A stretch of 24,086 nt of DNA. Origin: a virus. Position numbers and translations under genes: made by a program. Shown here in pieces: positions 1,280 to 10,200 of this stretch (its first letter is position 1; each line of letters begins with the position of its first letter). Below the pieces are notes generated by a model that saw only the letters and a program-made list of their open reading frames with translations, was not told the DNA's origin and made no database searches. The DNA lies in the IMG/VR virus record IMGVR_UViG_3300048446_000191, positions 1 to 24,086 of that record; one strand, given 5' to 3'.

Positions 1280-3622
1280 TTAACAGAAAAAATAAGTGGA
1301 ATCAATTACGGAGCTAGGTTCTAGATCTCCAATAATCGGTGGGTTAGACTCTGCTCCTATTTGGTTAGCAAAGTCTTGCAAGTAATCGTGTTCAGCAAAG
1401 AGGTGCATATATGTTTCTCGTACAATTGCACTGAGAACAGACATGTCGGTAGCACGACACAATACAGAATCATGAATGAGAGCGATCGGTGCATTGAAAG
1501 CCAATGCGCTGAAGTGGAGCAAGGAAGCATCGAGTGAATGTATTAGATTCGGCGCTGTTGCATTTTTGTGGTGTTGTTTGTCAACCTTGTCACTATCTTG
1601 TGTAGCAACAGTTAGTTTACAACGACCAAGCAACTGCAATTCTAATTGAATTGTTTCTTTCTTCATGAGCTTTTGAGTGACAACAAAACCTGATGGTGTA
1701 GACCATGTTAGTTCTGTTTTACCCAAGTCGATTGCTTTAGCAACCTCCTCTTCAATCCAACTCATGACAGCCATAGGACCAGGTACGACCTCATCCATAG
1801 CATTTCTAACAGCCTCAACAGTTTTTGTCAAGTCATCTTTATCAATCTCAATACCCTTTTCTTTTAGTGCGTCCTTGATGTACCCACGATTTGAGAAAGG
1901 TTTTGCATTGTAAGGTACGGTCATTACTACTCTTTTGACTACCTTTCTATCCATATAATTGCGGATAGAATTAGGGCAGAAAGGAGTAGCAGTACGAGCG
2001 ACGACAGCATAAGCATCCTGTGGTTTATCAGACGGTAATACGTTAACAAGACTAGCAGTATTTTTATCTTTAGCAAGACCTGCTAATATCTGTAACCCGC
2101 TACAAGTAGCATCTGTAGCTACAGGCAAGCTTGTAAAATGACGATCACACTTAAGCACACAATGATAATACTCATCACATGCTGCAAGAAATTGCCATGG
2201 CTCATCAGCTGCTTCCCAGTCGTGAATGTGTAAGATAGGATCACTAGCGACACAAGTTATAAGATGAGTATTATTCTTTACCCAATCTAATCTTTCTTGC
2301 ATCGTAGCTTTATCTAGACCATAAGTAGTAGCTACTTGAAAGGCTAACCAGTCTTCAGCTTCAGGAGTCATGTAAGCTGATTCAGCAAAAGACAATAAAC
2401 TTTTTCCAAAGTCTGTGTCTTGTGGTGTTAAGAATGCAGGGATTGGGTAAGCTCTACCTCTGTAATCAAAAGACCAAGGAATAAAGAATTTATCTTTACT
2501 CTTAAATCTTTGTACAGCTTCCATTGTCATTCTTGTTCTACATGACTTCTTAAACTCTTGTGCTTGTAGATTGTAAACATCAGCAGCTTGTCTATTATAA
2601 TTATGACGAGCTTCTTTATTAGTTGCTATGTCTACAGGCTTAGGAGGTAAGTCATGATGAATAATAGGGAGAAACTTACCGACAGCTCGTTCCAATCTAT
2701 CTAGTTCTTCCGCTACACCCACAATAAAGGGGTTTAGACGGTAAGCAACCTTCTGAATTCGATTCAAGAACTCAATAGGTCTCTCTCCCTGTATACATGT
2801 GGGATCTCCTCTTCGTACCATATCATGCCCACGCATCACCTCATTTAGGATGTAACCGCCACATTTTTCATGTGTCCAGTCATTAGGTTCGATGAGCATT
2901 GGCCAAGCAAGTGGGCTAAATAACTCAGCATCACGCATTACTGCGTCCTTGATCTCAAGGAATTCTGGAGTTGGGACAACATAGTGGACACGTTTGCGTC
3001 CTTCTTGTTGCATGTCTTTTGTGAACCACCCGCTGCTTTGCATGATGCAGTCAAGTAACCAGCCTCCAAGTTTAATGCGATTAGCTCTGCCCCATGCATC
3101 CCATTGTTTAACGTCATAGCGATTCATCAAAGTACGGATCACAACTATTTTTTGTTGTGTACCTATTGAACGATGCCAATAGTTTTCTTTTAAAACATGT
3201 AACAAGCCTGGTGCATGTGTTTCGTAGTGACGCATCTGGCATTCTTGCTCAACAGCAAGACCAATAGCATCGCACACATTGACTGTTTGATTGCTTTTGT
3301 CTTTATATGAAAAGACTTTATCAAACGTTAGCTTAACAGCTAAAGCAGCAGCAGCCAAAGGCTCAACATCAGCAAGATACTTTTGTATTTCTTTGAAAGC
3401 TACACCTGTTTTACCACGTTTAATGGCATATTCTACAGTGTCTTCAATACGTGCAACCACAAGAGGCAACAAGGTATCGATAGAAGCAGCTCCGTAAACA
3501 GTAGCAGACGCATACGATTTGTTTTCTAAGTCGTAGGTGTTTTTATGTAGACGCTTGAGACCTTGTGAAATAGCATCACGCTCAAGCTGGATCTGTTCGT
3601 CAATCTCTGCTGGTGTTGGCAA
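1280..3622 (-). CDS. Single-subunit DNA-directed RNA polymerase (T7 gp1-like)
   Basis: This enzyme transcribes the middle and late phage genes. It has 780 residues (T7 has 883), with the shortening mostly in the N-terminal domain. Visible motifs in order are DYRGRAYP (386-393), motif A with D504 in ATDATCSGLQ, motif B with R559, K563 and Y571 (T7 K631 and Y639), and motif C IHDS with D718 (T7 D812). In the specificity loop the T7 promoter-reading residues R746, N748 and Q758 align with Q, E and T, so promoter choice should differ. The C-terminus is YFFC where T7 ends AFA. The start is TTG at 3622, chosen because AGGAGGAG lies just upstream and the frame begins PTPAEIDEQ. It overlaps the preceding small gene by 23 bases. 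Confidence 0.97.
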   Translation of the reverse strand: MPTPAEIDEQIQLERDAISQGLKRLHKNTYDLENKSYASATVYGAASIDTLLPLVVARIEDTVEYAIKRGKTGVAFKEIQKYLADVEPLAAAALAVKLTFDKVFSYKDKSNQTVNVCDAIGLAVEQECQMRHYETHAPGLLHVLKENYWHRSIGTQQKIVVIRTLMNRYDVKQWDAWGRANRIKLGGWLLDCIMQSSGWFTKDMQQEGRKRVHYVVPTPEFLEIKDAVMRDAELFSPLAWPMLIEPNDWTHEKCGGYILNEVMRGHDMVRRGDPTCIQGERPIEFLNRIQKVAYRLNPFIVGVAEELDRLERAVGKFLPIIHHDLPPKPVDIATNKEARHNYNRQAADVYNLQAQEFKKSCRTRMTMEAVQRFKSKDKFFIPWSFDYRGRAYPIPAFLTPQDTDFGKSLLSFAESAYMTPEAEDWLAFQVATTYGLDKATMQERLDWVKNNTHLITCVASDPILHIHDWEAADEPWQFLAACDEYYHCVLKCDRHFTSLPVATDATCSGLQILAGLAKDKNTASLVNVLPSDKPQDAYAVVARTATPFCPNSIRNYMDRKVVKRVVMTVPYNAKPFSNRGYIKDALKEKGIEIDKDDLTKTVEAVRNAMDEVVPGPMAVMSWIEEEVAKAIDLGKTELTWSTPSGFVVTQKLMKKETIQLELQLLGRCKLTVATQDSDKVDKQHHKNATAPNLIHSLDASLLHFSALAFNAPIALIHDSVLCRATDMSVLSAIVRETYMHLFAEHDYLQDFANQIGAESNPPIIGDLEPSSVIDSTYFFC

Positions 3623-5203: not shown

Positions 5204-5632
5204 TCAGAAGTTACGATTGAAGAAATAGTATTCACAATCGTGATAGATTGCAAAGTAATCATATTGCATTGATTGATGCCATACCATCTCCCAATCGATT
5301 GCAGTCTGTAAGAATACTGGCATCGCATCGATTGCCTCACTGTAGCACTCACATAGTAAGTCCTCACAGAATGTTGACTCGTCACGATAACAACCCGAGA
5401 AAGCATCATCTAACGTTTCTTCGTTGTCGATGCCATACCCTTCAAGTTCTTGAATGATGGTGTCAATCTTAGATACGCTGTCGATGTCAAACAACTCGCT
5501 TACACGTTGTTGCATGTCAGTGATAGTTTCTTCAATCATTAAAGTTTCTGGAACAACAGTATCAGGTTTAAAACGTTTTGCAATATATTCATCACGTTCT
5601 GAACCAGTGAGTAGAATAGTGTTGTCAGACAT
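5204..5632 (-). CDS. ArdA-like antirestriction protein
   Basis: ArdA proteins mimic bent B-form DNA and block type I restriction enzymes soon after DNA entry. This 142-residue protein is very acidic (about 32 D/E against 8 K/R). Its second half carries the ArdA pattern: DDAFSGCYRDESTFCEDLL (residues 75-93), AIDWE (111-115), and a final aromatic strand (DYFAIYHDCEYYFF, 125-138). The first 60 residues are less clearly alignable, so it may be a shortened or two-domain variant. ATG at 5632 is preferred over an ATG 33 bases upstream, because a CACATTCACA leader lies directly before it. Early position among host-takeover genes fits anti-defence. The family call is by motif reading only. Confidence 0.72.
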   Translation of the reverse strand: MSDNTILLTGSERDEYIAKRFKPDTVVPETLMIEETITDMQQRVSELFDIDSVSKIDTIIQELEGYGIDNEETLDDAFSGCYRDESTFCEDLLCECYSEAIDAMPVFLQTAIDWEMVWHQSMQYDYFAIYHDCEYYFFNRNF

Positions 5633-5637
5633 AATGT

Positions 5638-5647
5638 TGTGAATGTG
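5638..5647 (-). repeat. CACATTCACA leader repeat before the ArdA-like gene
   Basis: Minus strand context is ACAACACATTCACAACATT followed by the ATG at 5632. The ten-base core is identical to copies at 41-50, 4221-4230, 5144-5153 and 6909-6918. There is no AAGGA box here, so this start lacks a normal Shine-Dalgarno and may depend on the A/C-rich leader. Confidence 0.5.
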
Positions 5648-5669
5648 TTGTTTGATTAAAGACAAAGAA

Positions 5670-6247: not shown

Positions 6248-6466
6248 TCAAGAGTAAGCGTACATAAACTCAGACAAAGGATTCTCTTCGTCTGTAGCTG
6301 TCTCAACTATAAGCTCAGCATGAGTCATAGCGTTAAGATAGTCTAGATGCTCATCTAATGTGAAGTCGTCTTCAGTAGGCTCAACATCATGCATGAGTTG
6401 GATATACTCAGCTTGCAAAGCATCGACGAGTTGTTGGTGTGAGTAGTCAGTTGGAAGTGTTTGCAT
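6248..6466 (-). CDS. Small acidic early protein (72 aa)
   Basis: The function is not recognised. The sequence is highly acidic and probably all-helical: HQQLVDALQAEYIQLMHD, then EPTEDDFTLDEHLDYLNAM, then HAELIVETATDEENPLSEF. There are no membrane segments or metal motifs. The start lies two bases after the TAA of the upstream mini-gene (TAATCATG). Such acidic helical early proteins in phages can be DNA mimics or enzyme inhibitors, but nothing specific can be claimed. Confidence 0.68.
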   Translation of the reverse strand: MQTLPTDYSHQQLVDALQAEYIQLMHDVEPTEDDFTLDEHLDYLNAMTHAELIVETATDEENPLSEFMYAYS

Positions 6467-6468
6467 GA

Positions 6469-6570
6469 TTAGTTAATGATTCCAGTGTTGATACATTGTG
6501 CTACATAGTTGGCGTCGTTATCACCAATGATGAAGCAAGCAAGGAAGAAAGGGAGGAGTTTGTTTGTCAT
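6469..6570 (-). CDS. Mini-gene with hydrophobic N-terminus, possibly leaderless (33 aa)
   Basis: The frame begins MTNKLLPFFLACFIIG, which looks like a signal peptide or membrane anchor (one lysine, then 12 mostly hydrophobic residues with a cysteine at 12). It continues DNDANYVAQCINTGIIN. The ATG lies exactly six bases after the -10 hexamer of the promoter at 6577-6620, so the transcript may begin at or very near the start codon. The stop is two bases before the next ATG. It is short, so reality rests on the promoter arrangement and tight packing. Confidence 0.5.
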   Translation of the reverse strand: MTNKLLPFFLACFIIGDNDANYVAQCINTGIIN

Positions 6571-6576
6571 GTATTA

Positions 6577-6620
6577 ATGATAGCAGATGGAGGAGAGGAA
6601 GTCAAGCAGTAGTGGACAGT
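6577..6620 (-). promoter_or_regulatory. Host-type early promoter P3
   Basis: Minus strand: ACTGTCCAC (6620-6612), six bases, TTGACT (-35, 6605-6600), 17 bases ending TGC, TATCAT (-10, 6582-6577). It matches the sigma70 consensus with optimal spacing and an extended TGn before the -10. The ACTGTCYAC box sits at the same distance in all three promoters. P3 also shares CAACG before this box (with one base between) with P1. Confidence 0.75.
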
Positions 6621-6621
6621 T
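6588..6621 (-). repeat. Promoter-cassette repeat, copy 1
   Basis: This is an imperfect direct repeat of 6736-6766 and covers the upstream box, the -35 element and part of the spacer. Copies differ by a three-base indel and a few substitutions. The arrangement suggests duplication of a promoter cassette, with the -10 elements 145 bases apart. Confidence 0.7.
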
Positions 6622-6715
6622 CGTTGTCTGGTTCTTCGTTCATCATCTCTTCATACTCTTCCCATTGTTGCTCTTCAATCCAATGAATCATGGCGTCAGT
6701 TGGTGGGTTGTTCAT
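6602..6715 (-). CDS. Mini-gene for an acidic peptide, possibly leaderless (37 aa)
   Basis: The peptide begins MNNPPTDAMIHWIEEQQW and continues EEYEEMMNEEPDNEL. It is strongly acidic and probably a single helix. The ATG at 6715 lies exactly six bases after the -10 hexamer of promoter P2, as for the mini-gene downstream of P3, so initiation on a leaderless message is likely if the promoter is real. A longer frame from 6790 would run through the promoter and is not favoured. Function unknown. Confidence 0.5.
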   Translation of the reverse strand: MNNPPTDAMIHWIEEQQWEEYEEMMNEEPDNELSTTA

Positions 6716-6721
6716 ACTGTT

Positions 6722-6765
6722 AGTATGGCAGAGTTTGGAGGAGAAGTCAAGCGATGGTGGACAGT
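6722..6765 (-). promoter_or_regulatory. Host-type early promoter P2
   Basis: Minus strand: ACTGTCCAC (6765-6757), six bases, TTGACT (6750-6745), 17 bases ending TGC, CATACT (6727-6722). The -35 matches five of six and the -10 four of six, with an extended TGn. It lies between the 56-residue early gene and the 37-residue mini-gene. Confidence 0.72.
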
Positions 6766-6766
6766 T
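6736..6766 (-). repeat. Promoter-cassette repeat, copy 2
   Basis: This is the partner of 6588-6621, with the same order of upstream box, -35 element and pyrimidine-rich spacer. It begins just after the stop codon of the upstream gene. Confidence 0.7.
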
Positions 6767-6935
6767 ATCTAAGTGGTTGATAGTACACATGCTCCACGCT
6801 CTCGCTTATTTCATGATGTTGAATACCGTTAATCTTTGAGGGTTTGTTACGCTTACCCTTTGGCACTTTGTTACACCATAGCAGCTCACGCATAGGCTTA
6901 GCTCCAAGTGTGAATGTGACTTCTTTTAGTTTCAT
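6765..6935 (-). CDS. Small basic early protein (56 aa)
   Basis: The protein begins MKLKEVTFTLGAKPMRELLW, then CNKVPKGKRNKPSKINGIQHH, and ends VEHVYYQPLR. It is basic, with a likely strand-helix start, and no known domain is recognised. ATG at 6935 is chosen over an upstream in-frame ATG because GAGGG lies about seven bases before it and the preceding gene stops two bases earlier. One copy of the CACATTCACA repeat (6909-6918) falls inside its codons for VTFT and may be coincidental there. Confidence 0.65.
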   Translation of the reverse strand: MKLKEVTFTLGAKPMRELLWCNKVPKGKRNKPSKINGIQHHEISESVEHVYYQPLR

Positions 6936-6936
6936 A

Positions 6937-7266
6937 TCAAACCCTCGCGAAGGTGTAACCATTCTCAAACTGATGGATTAACTTATCATCAGTAATAAAC
7001 CATTCAAAAGCAAATTGATACACACTACATGTATACCCATCACACAATCCTTTTAAGATAGCATTCAACCGTGACTTGGTTGTATTACTTTGCCAACCTC
7101 CATCATATACTTCAACCTCTTCATCACTAATGCTTGCAATGTGATTACAATGCAGATGTACTGAAGTGATGCCTATCGTGCTGTCATAATATACAGCAGT
7201 ATTATCTTTCTTCCAGTCTTTACGCTGTTTGATAGCGTCAATCATCTGTCGTTCAATGAGTCGCAT
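6937..7266 (-). CDS. First early gene: conserved cyanophage-type hypothetical protein (109 aa)
   Basis: The sequence pattern NTAVYYDS, HLHCNHIASI, YDGGWQSNTTKSRLNAIL (about residues 54-71), and a following aromatic strand pair resembles a hypothetical protein that I recall as common in cyanophages. Its function is not known to me. ATG at 7266 is chosen because GGAGAGAG precedes it at normal spacing and because the P1 promoter lies 27-55 bases upstream, so an earlier ATG at 7302 would lie within the promoter. It is the first gene of the early region. Confidence 0.8.
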   Translation of the reverse strand: MRLIERQMIDAIKQRKDWKKDNTAVYYDSTIGITSVHLHCNHIASISDEEVEVYDGGWQSNTTKSRLNAILKGLCDGYTCSVYQFAFEWFITDDKLIHQFENGYTFARV

Positions 7267-7292
7267 GTGCTCTCTCCGTTGGTGATGTACAT

Positions 7293-7336
7293 AGTATGGC
7301 ACAGCTCACAGCATATGTCAACATGACGTAGACAGT
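7293..7336 (-). promoter_or_regulatory. Host-type early promoter P1
   Basis: Minus strand: ACTGTCTAC (7336-7328), six bases, TTGACA (perfect -35, 7321-7316), 17 bases ending TGC, CATACT (7298-7293). Predicted start is near 7286, giving a leader of about 20 bases with GGAGAGAG before the ATG at 7266. It shares CAACG before the box (one base between) with P3. It is positioned like the A promoters at the left end of T7. Confidence 0.8.
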
Positions 7337-7436
7337 ACGTTGACTGTCATTACAGATGTTTTGAGAATCATTATCATTATCAATATTTAATTACGATACG
7401 TATTCGTACCGCAACAATTAATTTGCTCGCGCTACG

Positions 7437-7581: not shown

Positions 7582-8238
7582 CTACGAGGTAATCGCTCGC
7601 ACTTCGTGCTCGCTCGGCCACATTGCCTCTGCAACAAGAGGGAAATGAGTACGTATTAACCCGTGAACGCCAGTTGCAACCAATTGGTGTTCAAGTTGAG
7701 TCCCGTTAGCGCATCTTAGCGCAGTATAATGCAACCAAGAGCGTAGAGTACCGTTCATATAGAGTTTAGTAGGTGTAGAGAGTGGAAGAACATCTCTTGC
7801 ACATTCTTTAGCGACACCAGCGGCCAACATTTCTTTATAAAGGGCTAAAGATTGATCAAACAGGTCTTGAGTACGAATTTGGAACTCTTGTTGAGTAAAT
7901 TCATTAAGATCATCAATACTATTTTGTCTATTTGTTGTATCTTGGCGTCTAAAGTTAGGGAGAGCTGGTGTTTTAACGACTTGAGCGTACCTTTGACTAA
8001 ATTCTTGAAAACTAAAAGATCTATGTCTTAAGATTTGACTAGCAACACTTCTGGTAGTGTCAATCTGTACACACATATTAACCATTTCAAAGGGTGACCA
8101 ATGATTATGTTTAATAAGATATTTAATTAATTTAATACAATCAGGATTATCTTGATTATCTGGGTTAGATACTCTAGCCATATAAGCTATCAATTGTTCA
8201 GCATCAGGAGTGACATGAACTAACTCTACATTATGCAT
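7582..8238 (-). CDS. thyX: Flavin-dependent thymidylate synthase ThyX
   Basis: ThyX makes dTMP from dUMP using FAD, NADPH and methylene-tetrahydrofolate, supporting phage DNA synthesis. The 218-residue length is typical. The signature RHRSFSFQEFSQR (residues 71-83) matches the ThyX motif RHRxxSxxxxSxR. HWSPFE (46-51) and the C-terminal block from RDVLPLSTPTKLYMNGTLRSW to QLEHQ are also typical. The start follows GTATGC without a Shine-Dalgarno. The gene sits alone between the terminase end and the early promoters, away from the replication genes. Its last codons lie in a CGCTCGC hairpin also found in the neighbouring non-coding stretch. Confidence 0.97.
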   Translation of the reverse strand: MHNVELVHVTPDAEQLIAYMARVSNPDNQDNPDCIKLIKYLIKHNHWSPFEMVNMCVQIDTTRSVASQILRHRSFSFQEFSQRYAQVVKTPALPNFRRQDTTNRQNSIDDLNEFTQQEFQIRTQDLFDQSLALYKEMLAAGVAKECARDVLPLSTPTKLYMNGTLRSWLHYTALRCANGTQLEHQLVATGVHGLIRTHFPLVAEAMWPSEHEVRAITS

Positions 8239-8475: not shown

Positions 8476-8479
8476 TCAA
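8285..8479 (-). CDS. Doubtful small reading frame after the large terminase (64 aa)
   Basis: The frame starts at a TTG overlapping the terminase stop, with an ATG at 8464 and another at 8380 as alternatives. The protein is basic and low in complexity (YRGEGKGGPDSPKGRN; PLFLMKREDTKDK; SPSSSFF), with no known motif. No start has a Shine-Dalgarno. The DNA also holds a candidate phage promoter and a small hairpin (8418-8432), which could explain the composition. It may be non-coding leader or genome-end sequence. Confidence 0.3.
   Translation of the reverse strand: MTRSHMYRGEGKGGPDSPKGRNSRQALIPPLFLMKREDTKDKISPSSSFFKNTSFNKMNPVRTY
8451..8475 (-). promoter_or_regulatory. Candidate promoter for the phage RNA polymerase
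   Basis: Minus strand AGATCCCACATGTATA followed by GGGGGG. It has the layout of T7-type promoters: a TATA melting region immediately before a run of G initiation bases. The 16 bases AGATCCCACATGTATA recur exactly at 2807-2792 inside the RNA polymerase gene, followed there by CAGGGAGAG. With two copies, one of them coding, this is suggestive only. Confidence 0.35.
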
Positions 8480-10200
8480 ACCCAGGTAGGGACTGAGTTT
8501 TTAGAGTTACCTTTGGCTTGTTGTCGCTGGTCTAAATTCATACCAAAAACCATATGATTAGCAGAAGCTTGTGGATCATCAATCATTTCTTCAATCATTG
8601 AATTCCACTCATCACGTTTACGATTTTTAATAGCTTCTAGAGCAGAGATACCGAGGGCATCTGTATAATATTGTACACCTTGAGCTAACGCATCTATTCT
8701 ATCATCATGACGGATTGCACCTTTTTCACGACACATCCTTGACATTTGATAGAATAACATATAAAGAAGACGTTCTTCGGGTGCAGCTTGTGGATTAGAT
8801 TTAAAGTCCCATTCTATAACAGACCGGTCGATAACGAGTCGGTGTTGATTAAGGACGGGTTCAAGGGAATCGATGATTCGATCTTCTTTTCTAACATTTG
8901 CTCGGACTTCTTCAATATCAATTGCTTGCTTTGTTTGTTGAAGATGTTTGCGGAACAACTCGCTAACAATGCCGTCACCAAAATTAGTTTCAATGAGGAG
9001 CTTAGAAACGCCATACTTTTTACAACCTTTTAGAATATCGAGTAATGTATTGTCGCTGTATCCGTCCCTGTAAGCACGCATGTCGTGCAAGTACAGAAAA
9101 CCATTGCGTTGTGAGAGATAAGCTGCTGCCGTTTCATCCGATCCACGACCCGACGGGTCAACACTGCAGATTGTTTCTTGGTAAGGGTCCCATGTTCCCT
9201 GTAACTGCATTGGAGAGTAGAAATAATCTCCAGGGAGTCCAACAATGGGGAGGTCTTTGATAACGTTTTGTGGATCGGAACACCAAACGATGGATTCGGG
9301 AGCAGTAGAGGGGTTAACGCTAGTGACGATAAGGTCAGAGCATTTAAGAGGAAATTTTTCAGCATCAGATAAGCTTGTGTCTAACATGAACTGCAACATA
9401 AAGTTGCTGCGACCCATTGACGCTTCACGTTCAATCAGGTCTTCATTATCAAATCTATCATCAGTTACTTCCCATTTCTCTGCACCACCATCTATATCTT
9501 CTACCAGTTGAGGCGCTAGAAGGCCTTCGTATTGTGAAACCTTCCTAGGATACCTAGCAGGCCAAACAAAGGGCTTGTAACTCCTCTCAGCTAGCTTACG
9601 ATAGACAGTAAATGTTGTCTGAGGTGTACCCAGAAACATAATACGTGAATCTGGTTTAGGAGTAAGGATAGATTCAGCTTCAGTACATAATTGTAGAAGC
9701 TTCTCCCTCATAAATTCTGTCATTGAGTTACCAGGAACTTCAATGTCGTCAAGGATCATTAAATCAGCGCGACTACCGGTAAGCTGACCAGTAATACCGA
9801 CTGATTTAACAGAAGGAGCTTGGTGAGGGGAACAAGCCACATCAAATGAGATACGACTCCAACGGGAGTCATCAGATTTTGGGCGCAAATGTACCAACCA
9901 GGGTGTTTCAATGATTAATTTCTGTAGGAAGATTGACATGTTATCTGCTCGTTCTTTAGAAGCAGATATAATCATTATTTTCTTTTCGGGGTTATTAAAT
10001 AAAGTCCAAAGAACAAAAGCACCAGTAATCCAGCTCTTACCAACTCCCCGAAATGCTTGGATTTGTAAACGCTTTGGACCATGTTGAAGGTAATCAGCAA
10101 TTGCATATTGAGCACGTGTAGGGTTTGGTAGTTCTAATTCACTCCATAATGCTTGTAGGAATAGCTTAAAATCGTCTTTAAGGAGGTCTAAAGTGTTCAT
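8476..10200 (-). CDS. Large terminase subunit, ATPase and nuclease (T7 gp19-like)
   Basis: TerL translocates concatemeric DNA into the prohead and cuts it. The 574-residue length fits T7 gp19. ATPase features are Walker A FRGVGKSW (residues 50-57), Walker B LMILDDIE (147-154) and the coupling motif FLGTPQT (189-195). The nuclease domain shows acidic clusters SVDPSGRGSDE (D348), LLIETNFGDG (E404) and HDDRIDAL (D499, D500, D503). The start has no clear Shine-Dalgarno. It is the last gene of the virion and packaging region, and its stop overlaps a doubtful small frame. T7-type TerL suggests packaging with direct terminal repeats. Confidence 0.96.
   Translation of the reverse strand: MNTLDLLKDDFKLFLQALWSELELPNPTRAQYAIADYLQHGPKRLQIQAFRGVGKSWITGAFVLWTLFNNPEKKIMIISASKERADNMSIFLQKLIIETPWLVHLRPKSDDSRWSRISFDVACSPHQAPSVKSVGITGQLTGSRADLMILDDIEVPGNSMTEFMREKLLQLCTEAESILTPKPDSRIMFLGTPQTTFTVYRKLAERSYKPFVWPARYPRKVSQYEGLLAPQLVEDIDGGAEKWEVTDDRFDNEDLIEREASMGRSNFMLQFMLDTSLSDAEKFPLKCSDLIVTSVNPSTAPESIVWCSDPQNVIKDLPIVGLPGDYFYSPMQLQGTWDPYQETICSVDPSGRGSDETAAAYLSQRNGFLYLHDMRAYRDGYSDNTLLDILKGCKKYGVSKLLIETNFGDGIVSELFRKHLQQTKQAIDIEEVRANVRKEDRIIDSLEPVLNQHRLVIDRSVIEWDFKSNPQAAPEERLLYMLFYQMSRMCREKGAIRHDDRIDALAQGVQYYTDALGISALEAIKNRKRDEWNSMIEEMIDDPQASANHMVFGMNLDQRQQAKGNSKNSVPTWV

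Follow-up and report, generated by a model that had tools for sequence, protein, structure and literature searches.

What starts transcription in cyanophages is poorly known, and early and middle control in cyanomyoviruses is called unclear in a review (PMC2984593). The locus studied here bears on this question. The whole stretch of DNA analysed (hereafter, the window; 24,086 bases, from a virus record that is possibly a fragment) belongs to a T7-like cyanopodovirus; its genes were identified by matches to S-RIP1, WH11-B, 7B11-B and S-SBP1, and the order of the RNA polymerase, thyX and terminase large subunit genes is that of related Synechococcus phages. Three promoters, P1 to P3, are located between thyX and the RNA polymerase gene, in the usual early region of the group, and are directed towards the latter; from this position upstream of the phage RNA polymerase gene, we infer that they are early promoters. 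A reading of the letters alone (the sequence-only reading) had noted that all three carry a 9-bp box, ACTGTCYAC, six bases upstream of the −35. What is this box, and what is it likely to do?

All three sites were found on the minus strand exactly where the sequence-only reading had placed them (Table 1). The exact pattern box-N6-TTGAC has three matches in the window and none in 200 order-1 shuffles, a backwards control pattern has no match in the window, and with a weight matrix for the whole module P1–P3 alone score above 14 bits, the shuffled window remaining below 0. The assignment of the promoters to the σ70 type also held, with a TTGACA-like −35 and a TANNNT-like −10 separated by 17 bp and 9–10 of the 12 consensus letters present at each of P1, P2 and P3; moreover, TGC is found immediately 5′ of the −10 at all three, which are thus extended −10 promoters.

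Table 1. Promoter elements and genes of the window (dyads and cores are read on the minus strand; +1, predicted transcription start)
Feature	Position	Strand	Description
P1 module	7336-7293	−	ACTGTCTAC-GTCATG-TTGACA-17-CATACT
P1 operator dyad	7328-7351	−	left AATGACAGT 7351-7343, spacer 7342-7337, right ACTGTCTAC 7336-7328 (the box of the sequence-only reading)
P1 core	7293-7321	−	TTGACA 7321-7316, 17-bp spacer ending TGC, CATACT 7298-7293; predicted +1 at 7286
P1 leader with GGAG ribosome site	7277-7274	−	sequence
P1-driven gene, PF23790 Kyanoviridae Gp96 family	6937-7266	−	E 5.5e-38
P2 module	6765-6722	−	ACTGTCCAC-CATCGC-TTGACT-17-CATACT
P2 operator dyad	6757-6780	−	left TCAACCACT 6780-6772 (weak), right ACTGTCCAC 6765-6757
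P2 core	6722-6750	−	TTGACT 6750-6745, 17-bp spacer ending TGC, CATACT 6727-6722; predicted +1 at 6715
P2 ORF, 37 aa	6602-6715	−	start codon A = predicted +1 (predicted leaderless)
P3 module	6620-6577	−	ACTGTCCAC-TACTGC-TTGACT-17-TATCAT
P3 operator dyad	6612-6635	−	left AGAACCAGA 6635-6627 (weak), right ACTGTCCAC 6620-6612
P3 core	6577-6605	−	TTGACT 6605-6600, 17-bp spacer ending TGC, TATCAT 6582-6577; predicted +1 at 6570
P3 ORF, 33 aa	6469-6570	−	start codon A = predicted +1 (predicted leaderless)
phrog_734 gene, 72 aa, acidic	6248-6466	−	start codon at the predicted +1 of such a promoter in S-RIP1, L025 and L044
T7-type RNA polymerase ORF	1280-3622	−	matches to related phages
thyX	7582-8238	−	matches to related phages
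Terminase large subunit	8476-10200	−	matches to related phages

The box exists as described, but it is only half of the element: judged by its sequence, ACTGTCYAC forms the right half of a 24-bp dyad of two-fold symmetry, TGTGMCAST-N6-ASTGTCYAC, with a variant of the form TGTGNCAST-N6-ASTGNCACA. The left half-site, separated from the 5′ end of the box by six bases, had been missed; it carries seven of the nine consensus letters at P1, six at P2 and five at P3. The dyad is centred at about −53.5 from the predicted start of σ70 extended −10 promoters, and perfect inverted repeats (TGTGCCAGT-N6-ACTGGCACA and TGTGCCACT-N6-AGTGGCACA) occupy the same place at other promoters of the same contigs, which were located by the core alone. 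In 1.77 Mb of phage loci, TGnCAST-N6-ASTGnCA occurs 94 times, as compared with 0–3 times for spacers of 3, 4, 5, 8 or 9 bases and 10 times for a spacer of 7. The arms also pair in register (70% of cells over 42 operators, against 31–43% when slid), but no covariation between them was found in the same 42 operators and no consensus fold of the dyad was predicted. Since the arms pair without covariation or fold, a dimeric protein reading each half separately is suggested, rather than an RNA hairpin; the dyad looks like DNA that is read by a protein. Covariation at the S position, suggested by single sites of S-RIP1 and Syn9, was absent in sets of 84 and of 77 sites. A direct-repeat reading was rejected (best direct score 4.9, below the best inverted score of 6.4), and a reading of TGTCCAC as a DnaA box was considered by eye and dropped. 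The CAACG that the sequence-only reading saw before the box at P1 and P3 is present at both, but falls in the family-variable spacer and is probably shared by chance.

Conservation of box and spacing in relatives, on which the sequence-only reading had staked its proposal, proved strong: box-N6-TTGAC-N15-TGC matched 98 stretches in IMG/VR, most of them with the full −10, against five matches for the N7 control, none with a −10. Seven contigs lacking a −10 were excluded by eye, as probable chance matches, ahead of the motif statistics, which were computed on 61 sites sharing less than 80% identity over 120 bp. This set reveals two further blocks: TGTGMCAST, six bases 5′ of the box, and, where transcription is predicted to start, RTG. 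As many of the loci were retrieved by the pattern itself, the letters of the pattern are conserved by construction, a reservation that does not apply to the left half, the −10 or the block at +1. The operator is moreover phased to the core. Downstream of 140 non-redundant operators, an extended −10 begins 43 times at offset 29, 11 times at offset 30 and no more than twice at any other, and the two operator classes differ by 1 bp in their distance from the core. The −35, by contrast, decays: it has at least three mismatches to TTGACA in 24 of 61 promoters with an operator and an extended −10, a few of which may be chance, the scan having read palindromes both ways. Syn9, S-RIM50, S-RIM2 and S-ShM2 likewise have operators that lack a good −35; P1–P3 retain one. 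That the operator stays phased to the −10 while the −35 decays suggests the footprint of an activator. The suspicion that the upstream element could be a regulator site is supported: the element is conserved and precisely spaced, is unlike an UP element and resembles such a site. Some operators have TTGAC on both flanks and a poor −10, as if for divergent promoters (L019 13537, L027 3329 and L268 5591).

The block at +1 often coincides with a start codon. Of the 61 non-redundant sites, 34 have an ATG whose first base is the predicted +1; these ATGs open ORFs of 26 to 303 codons, and in S-RIP1, L025, L044 and others the ORF that starts there is the phrog_734 gene. At P2 and P3 the predicted +1 is likewise the A of an ATG; at P1, a leader containing GGAG is found instead. 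Provided that the starts are confirmed, the mRNAs with ATG at +1 are leaderless. The parallel drawn earlier with the T7 A1–A3 promoters is thus a loose one, each promoter here serving a small gene cassette and two appearing leaderless.

The module is present in the T7-like S-RIP1 and in the T4-like Kyanoviridae (S-RIM50, Syn9, S-RIM2, S-ShM2 and others); among operator-bearing contigs, 11 encode a T7-type RNA polymerase and six the T4-like Gp23. It was not found in Syn5, P60, P-SSP7 or S-SBP1, nor in the examined parts of 7B11-B, WH11-B and S45-C4; S-SBP1 has a lone palindrome with two mismatches, within a gene. Early genes are likewise common to the two families: the P1 gene belongs to the Kyanoviridae Gp96 family (PF23790), and operator-bearing podoviruses and myoviruses both have phrog_734 and phrog_649. 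The former occurs in 254 phage records, S-RIP1 being the sole podovirus among the matches listed, and in 16 of 18 partial operator-bearing podovirus loci as opposed to none of seven operator-lacking loci. We considered phrog_734 as the regulator, but the protein is acidic and its gene sits behind the promoter, so that it is more likely cargo. Exchange of promoter-gene cassettes accounts more simply than convergence for the sharing between two families, although a cassette, once transferred, would have to meet the same protein in its new setting. In some relatives (L009, L034, L060, L090, L104 and L252), a different inverted repeat, TTATCAACAATGATAA, takes the place of the operator upstream of the −35 of P1.

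Which known promoters do these resemble? The late promoters activated by P2 Ogr and P4 Delta have a dyad some 55 bp ahead of the start, use a small activator together with host RNA polymerase, and can dispense with the −35; the activator is a phage-encoded zinc-finger protein that recognizes TGT-N12-ACA and serves late genes. This is the closest functional analogue known to us, with a dyad near −55 in both systems and, as in activator-dependent promoters of this type, at a fixed distance from the −10 (offset 29 or 30, 54 cases). However, the dyad described here is of 24 bp with other half-sites, the outer TGT and ACA being 18 bp apart in the consensus rather than separated by N12; the promoters seem to be early ones, and no protein resembling Ogr was found. 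In being early, σ70-type and placed in several copies before small takeover genes, they are like the T4 and T7 early promoters, which are used by the unmodified host σ70 polymerase; those, however, are without a dyad operator, and the T4 ones have A+T-rich upstream tracts. σ70-like early promoters have been predicted in S-PM2 and Syn9, the passage concerned giving the motif only and describing no dyad (PMC2984593); these very likely belong to the same class. Promoters of 16 cyanomyoviruses have been predicted with BPROM and with NtcA and Pho models, and NtcA, a host dyad regulator, has been proposed as used by cyanophages (PMC3037559); the NtcA sites of marine cyanobacteria (GTA-N8-TAC) differ from the dyad in half-site and spacing when the consensus sequences are compared directly. 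We found no earlier account of the dyad, in a literature search incomplete for key papers, and it may have been reported.

Searches for the regulator covered hosts and phages. With three patterns and one profile search, host genomes showed no clear excess of the site, matches in sets of 34 and 81 genomes being at control level, and a host regulon was set aside since the site is not enriched there; in genome G019 the matches lie on short contigs, the single one compared resembling T4-like phages. On the phage side, the early ORFs tested gave no match to a DNA-binding family, and no regulator was found that the two phage families share. The binder may be a protein of the host whose sites are few or degenerate, one carried by the particle, or a phage protein that escaped recognition; a host protein is favoured because the promoters should act first. 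The transcription programme of Syn9 is near identical in three Synechococcus strains (PMC5490813), which is compatible with any of these.

Taken as a whole, an activator operator carried on exchangeable early-gene cassettes is the explanation that we regard as probable, if not strongly so. A dimeric DNA-binding protein, present as infection starts, would bind the dyad and assist host RNA polymerase in promoter binding or opening, making a good −35 optional. Promoter and start codon would move as a cassette before small early genes, exchanged between T7-like and T4-like cyanophages, and about half of the promoters would start transcription on the A of the start codon, producing early mRNAs that lack a leader. 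As the promoters should act first, the regulator would most likely be host-encoded or brought in by the particle. Counting against an activator are the host genomes without an excess of the site, awkward for a host regulator, the good −35 kept by the promoters of the window together with the weak left halves of P2 and P3, and the 1-bp difference between operator classes.

Dyads are typical of repressors, and an early phage protein that binds the site and turns the early promoters off when later transcription begins would account, being phage-encoded, for the absence of the site from hosts. We think this unlikely: the site lies upstream of the −35 and not over the core, its 1-bp phasing to the −10 is kept, it persists where the −35 has decayed, and neither a DNA-binding family in the early ORFs tested nor a regulator common to both families came to light. 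Fixed phasing to the core would also be expected if the α subunit or σ touched the upstream sequence directly, in the manner of an UP element; with no extra protein, no host regulon would be expected either. UP elements, however, are A+T-rich tracts just upstream of the −35, whereas the site contains G+C and is a dyad of 24 bp whose half-sites have specific sequences, and the sequence-only reading was right to deny the box that identity; contact by polymerase alone seems quite improbable.

Very little weight can be given to an RNA role, with the dyad as the stem-loop or terminator of an upstream gene joined to an early promoter. Perfect inverted repeats do exist, and composites of a stem-loop and an early promoter (PeSL) are described for T4-like phages (PMC4503421); as here, promoter cassettes are there tied to the shuffling of early genes. 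But the PeSL repeat is an RNA stem-loop, whereas the arms of the dyad neither covary nor fold; P2 and P3 are unable to form a stem, and no terminator-like site was called at the boxes. Equally far-fetched is a functionless dyad, alike by descent in recently copied cassettes. Phages do exchange early cassettes, and some of the resemblance is accordingly inherited; yet the 61 sites with less than 80% identity over 120 bp keep dyad, TGC and −10 amid near-random spacers and flanks, and half-site variants mix while dyad and phasing persist.

Relative to the 9-bp box, the advance is a phased 24-bp operator on exchangeable early cassettes, with a putative activator role. The presence of the module in two unrelated cyanophage families suggests a shared regulator that switches on infection, and early genes appear to move between the families as promoter-gene cassettes. 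The common operator offers a DNA bait for isolating the regulator, and allows start sites to be predicted in hundreds of genomes. Should a single host factor serve the two families, that factor would be a vulnerability that they share, with a possible bearing on host range, in hosts that are some of the most abundant photosynthetic bacteria. More tentatively, and with some doubt, one picocyanobacterial DNA-binding activator may be used by T7-like and T4-like phages alike through the module of 24-bp operator, extended −10 and start codon at +1, giving a shared entry switch and leaderless early mRNAs, and an integrated host island may respond to it too.

The island, in genome G107, is of about 16 kb and lies downstream of a tRNA-Ser; it is flanked by a 13-bp repeat and carries an integrase gene and a type ISP restriction-modification gene. 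Two operator-like dyads are found near its ends (L325 6042-6065 and L326 4294-4317); one of them lies 5′ of the integrase and is followed at offset 29 by a −10-like hexamer. On this slight evidence, the island might be a satellite or a defence island that uses the phage signal.

Other sequences occur near P1. About 90 bp upstream of its start, GATAATGATAATGATTCTC (window 7363-7381, minus strand) agrees at 17 of 19 positions with the canonical Fur box, and similar sequences, e.g., GAGAACGATTCTC, are found again upstream of P1 in many relatives, with AAAACATCTGT after them. In L009 and L071, paired DnaA-box-like sequences, e.g., TTATCCACAAGTTGTGGAAAA, are found upstream of P1 in the early region. 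Lastly, the product of window 5204-5665 (minus strand) shows a weak likeness to the ArdA antirestriction protein (Pfam E 0.0003, under the curated cut-off; PHROG anti-restriction E 0.0037) and is a candidate early anti-defence protein.
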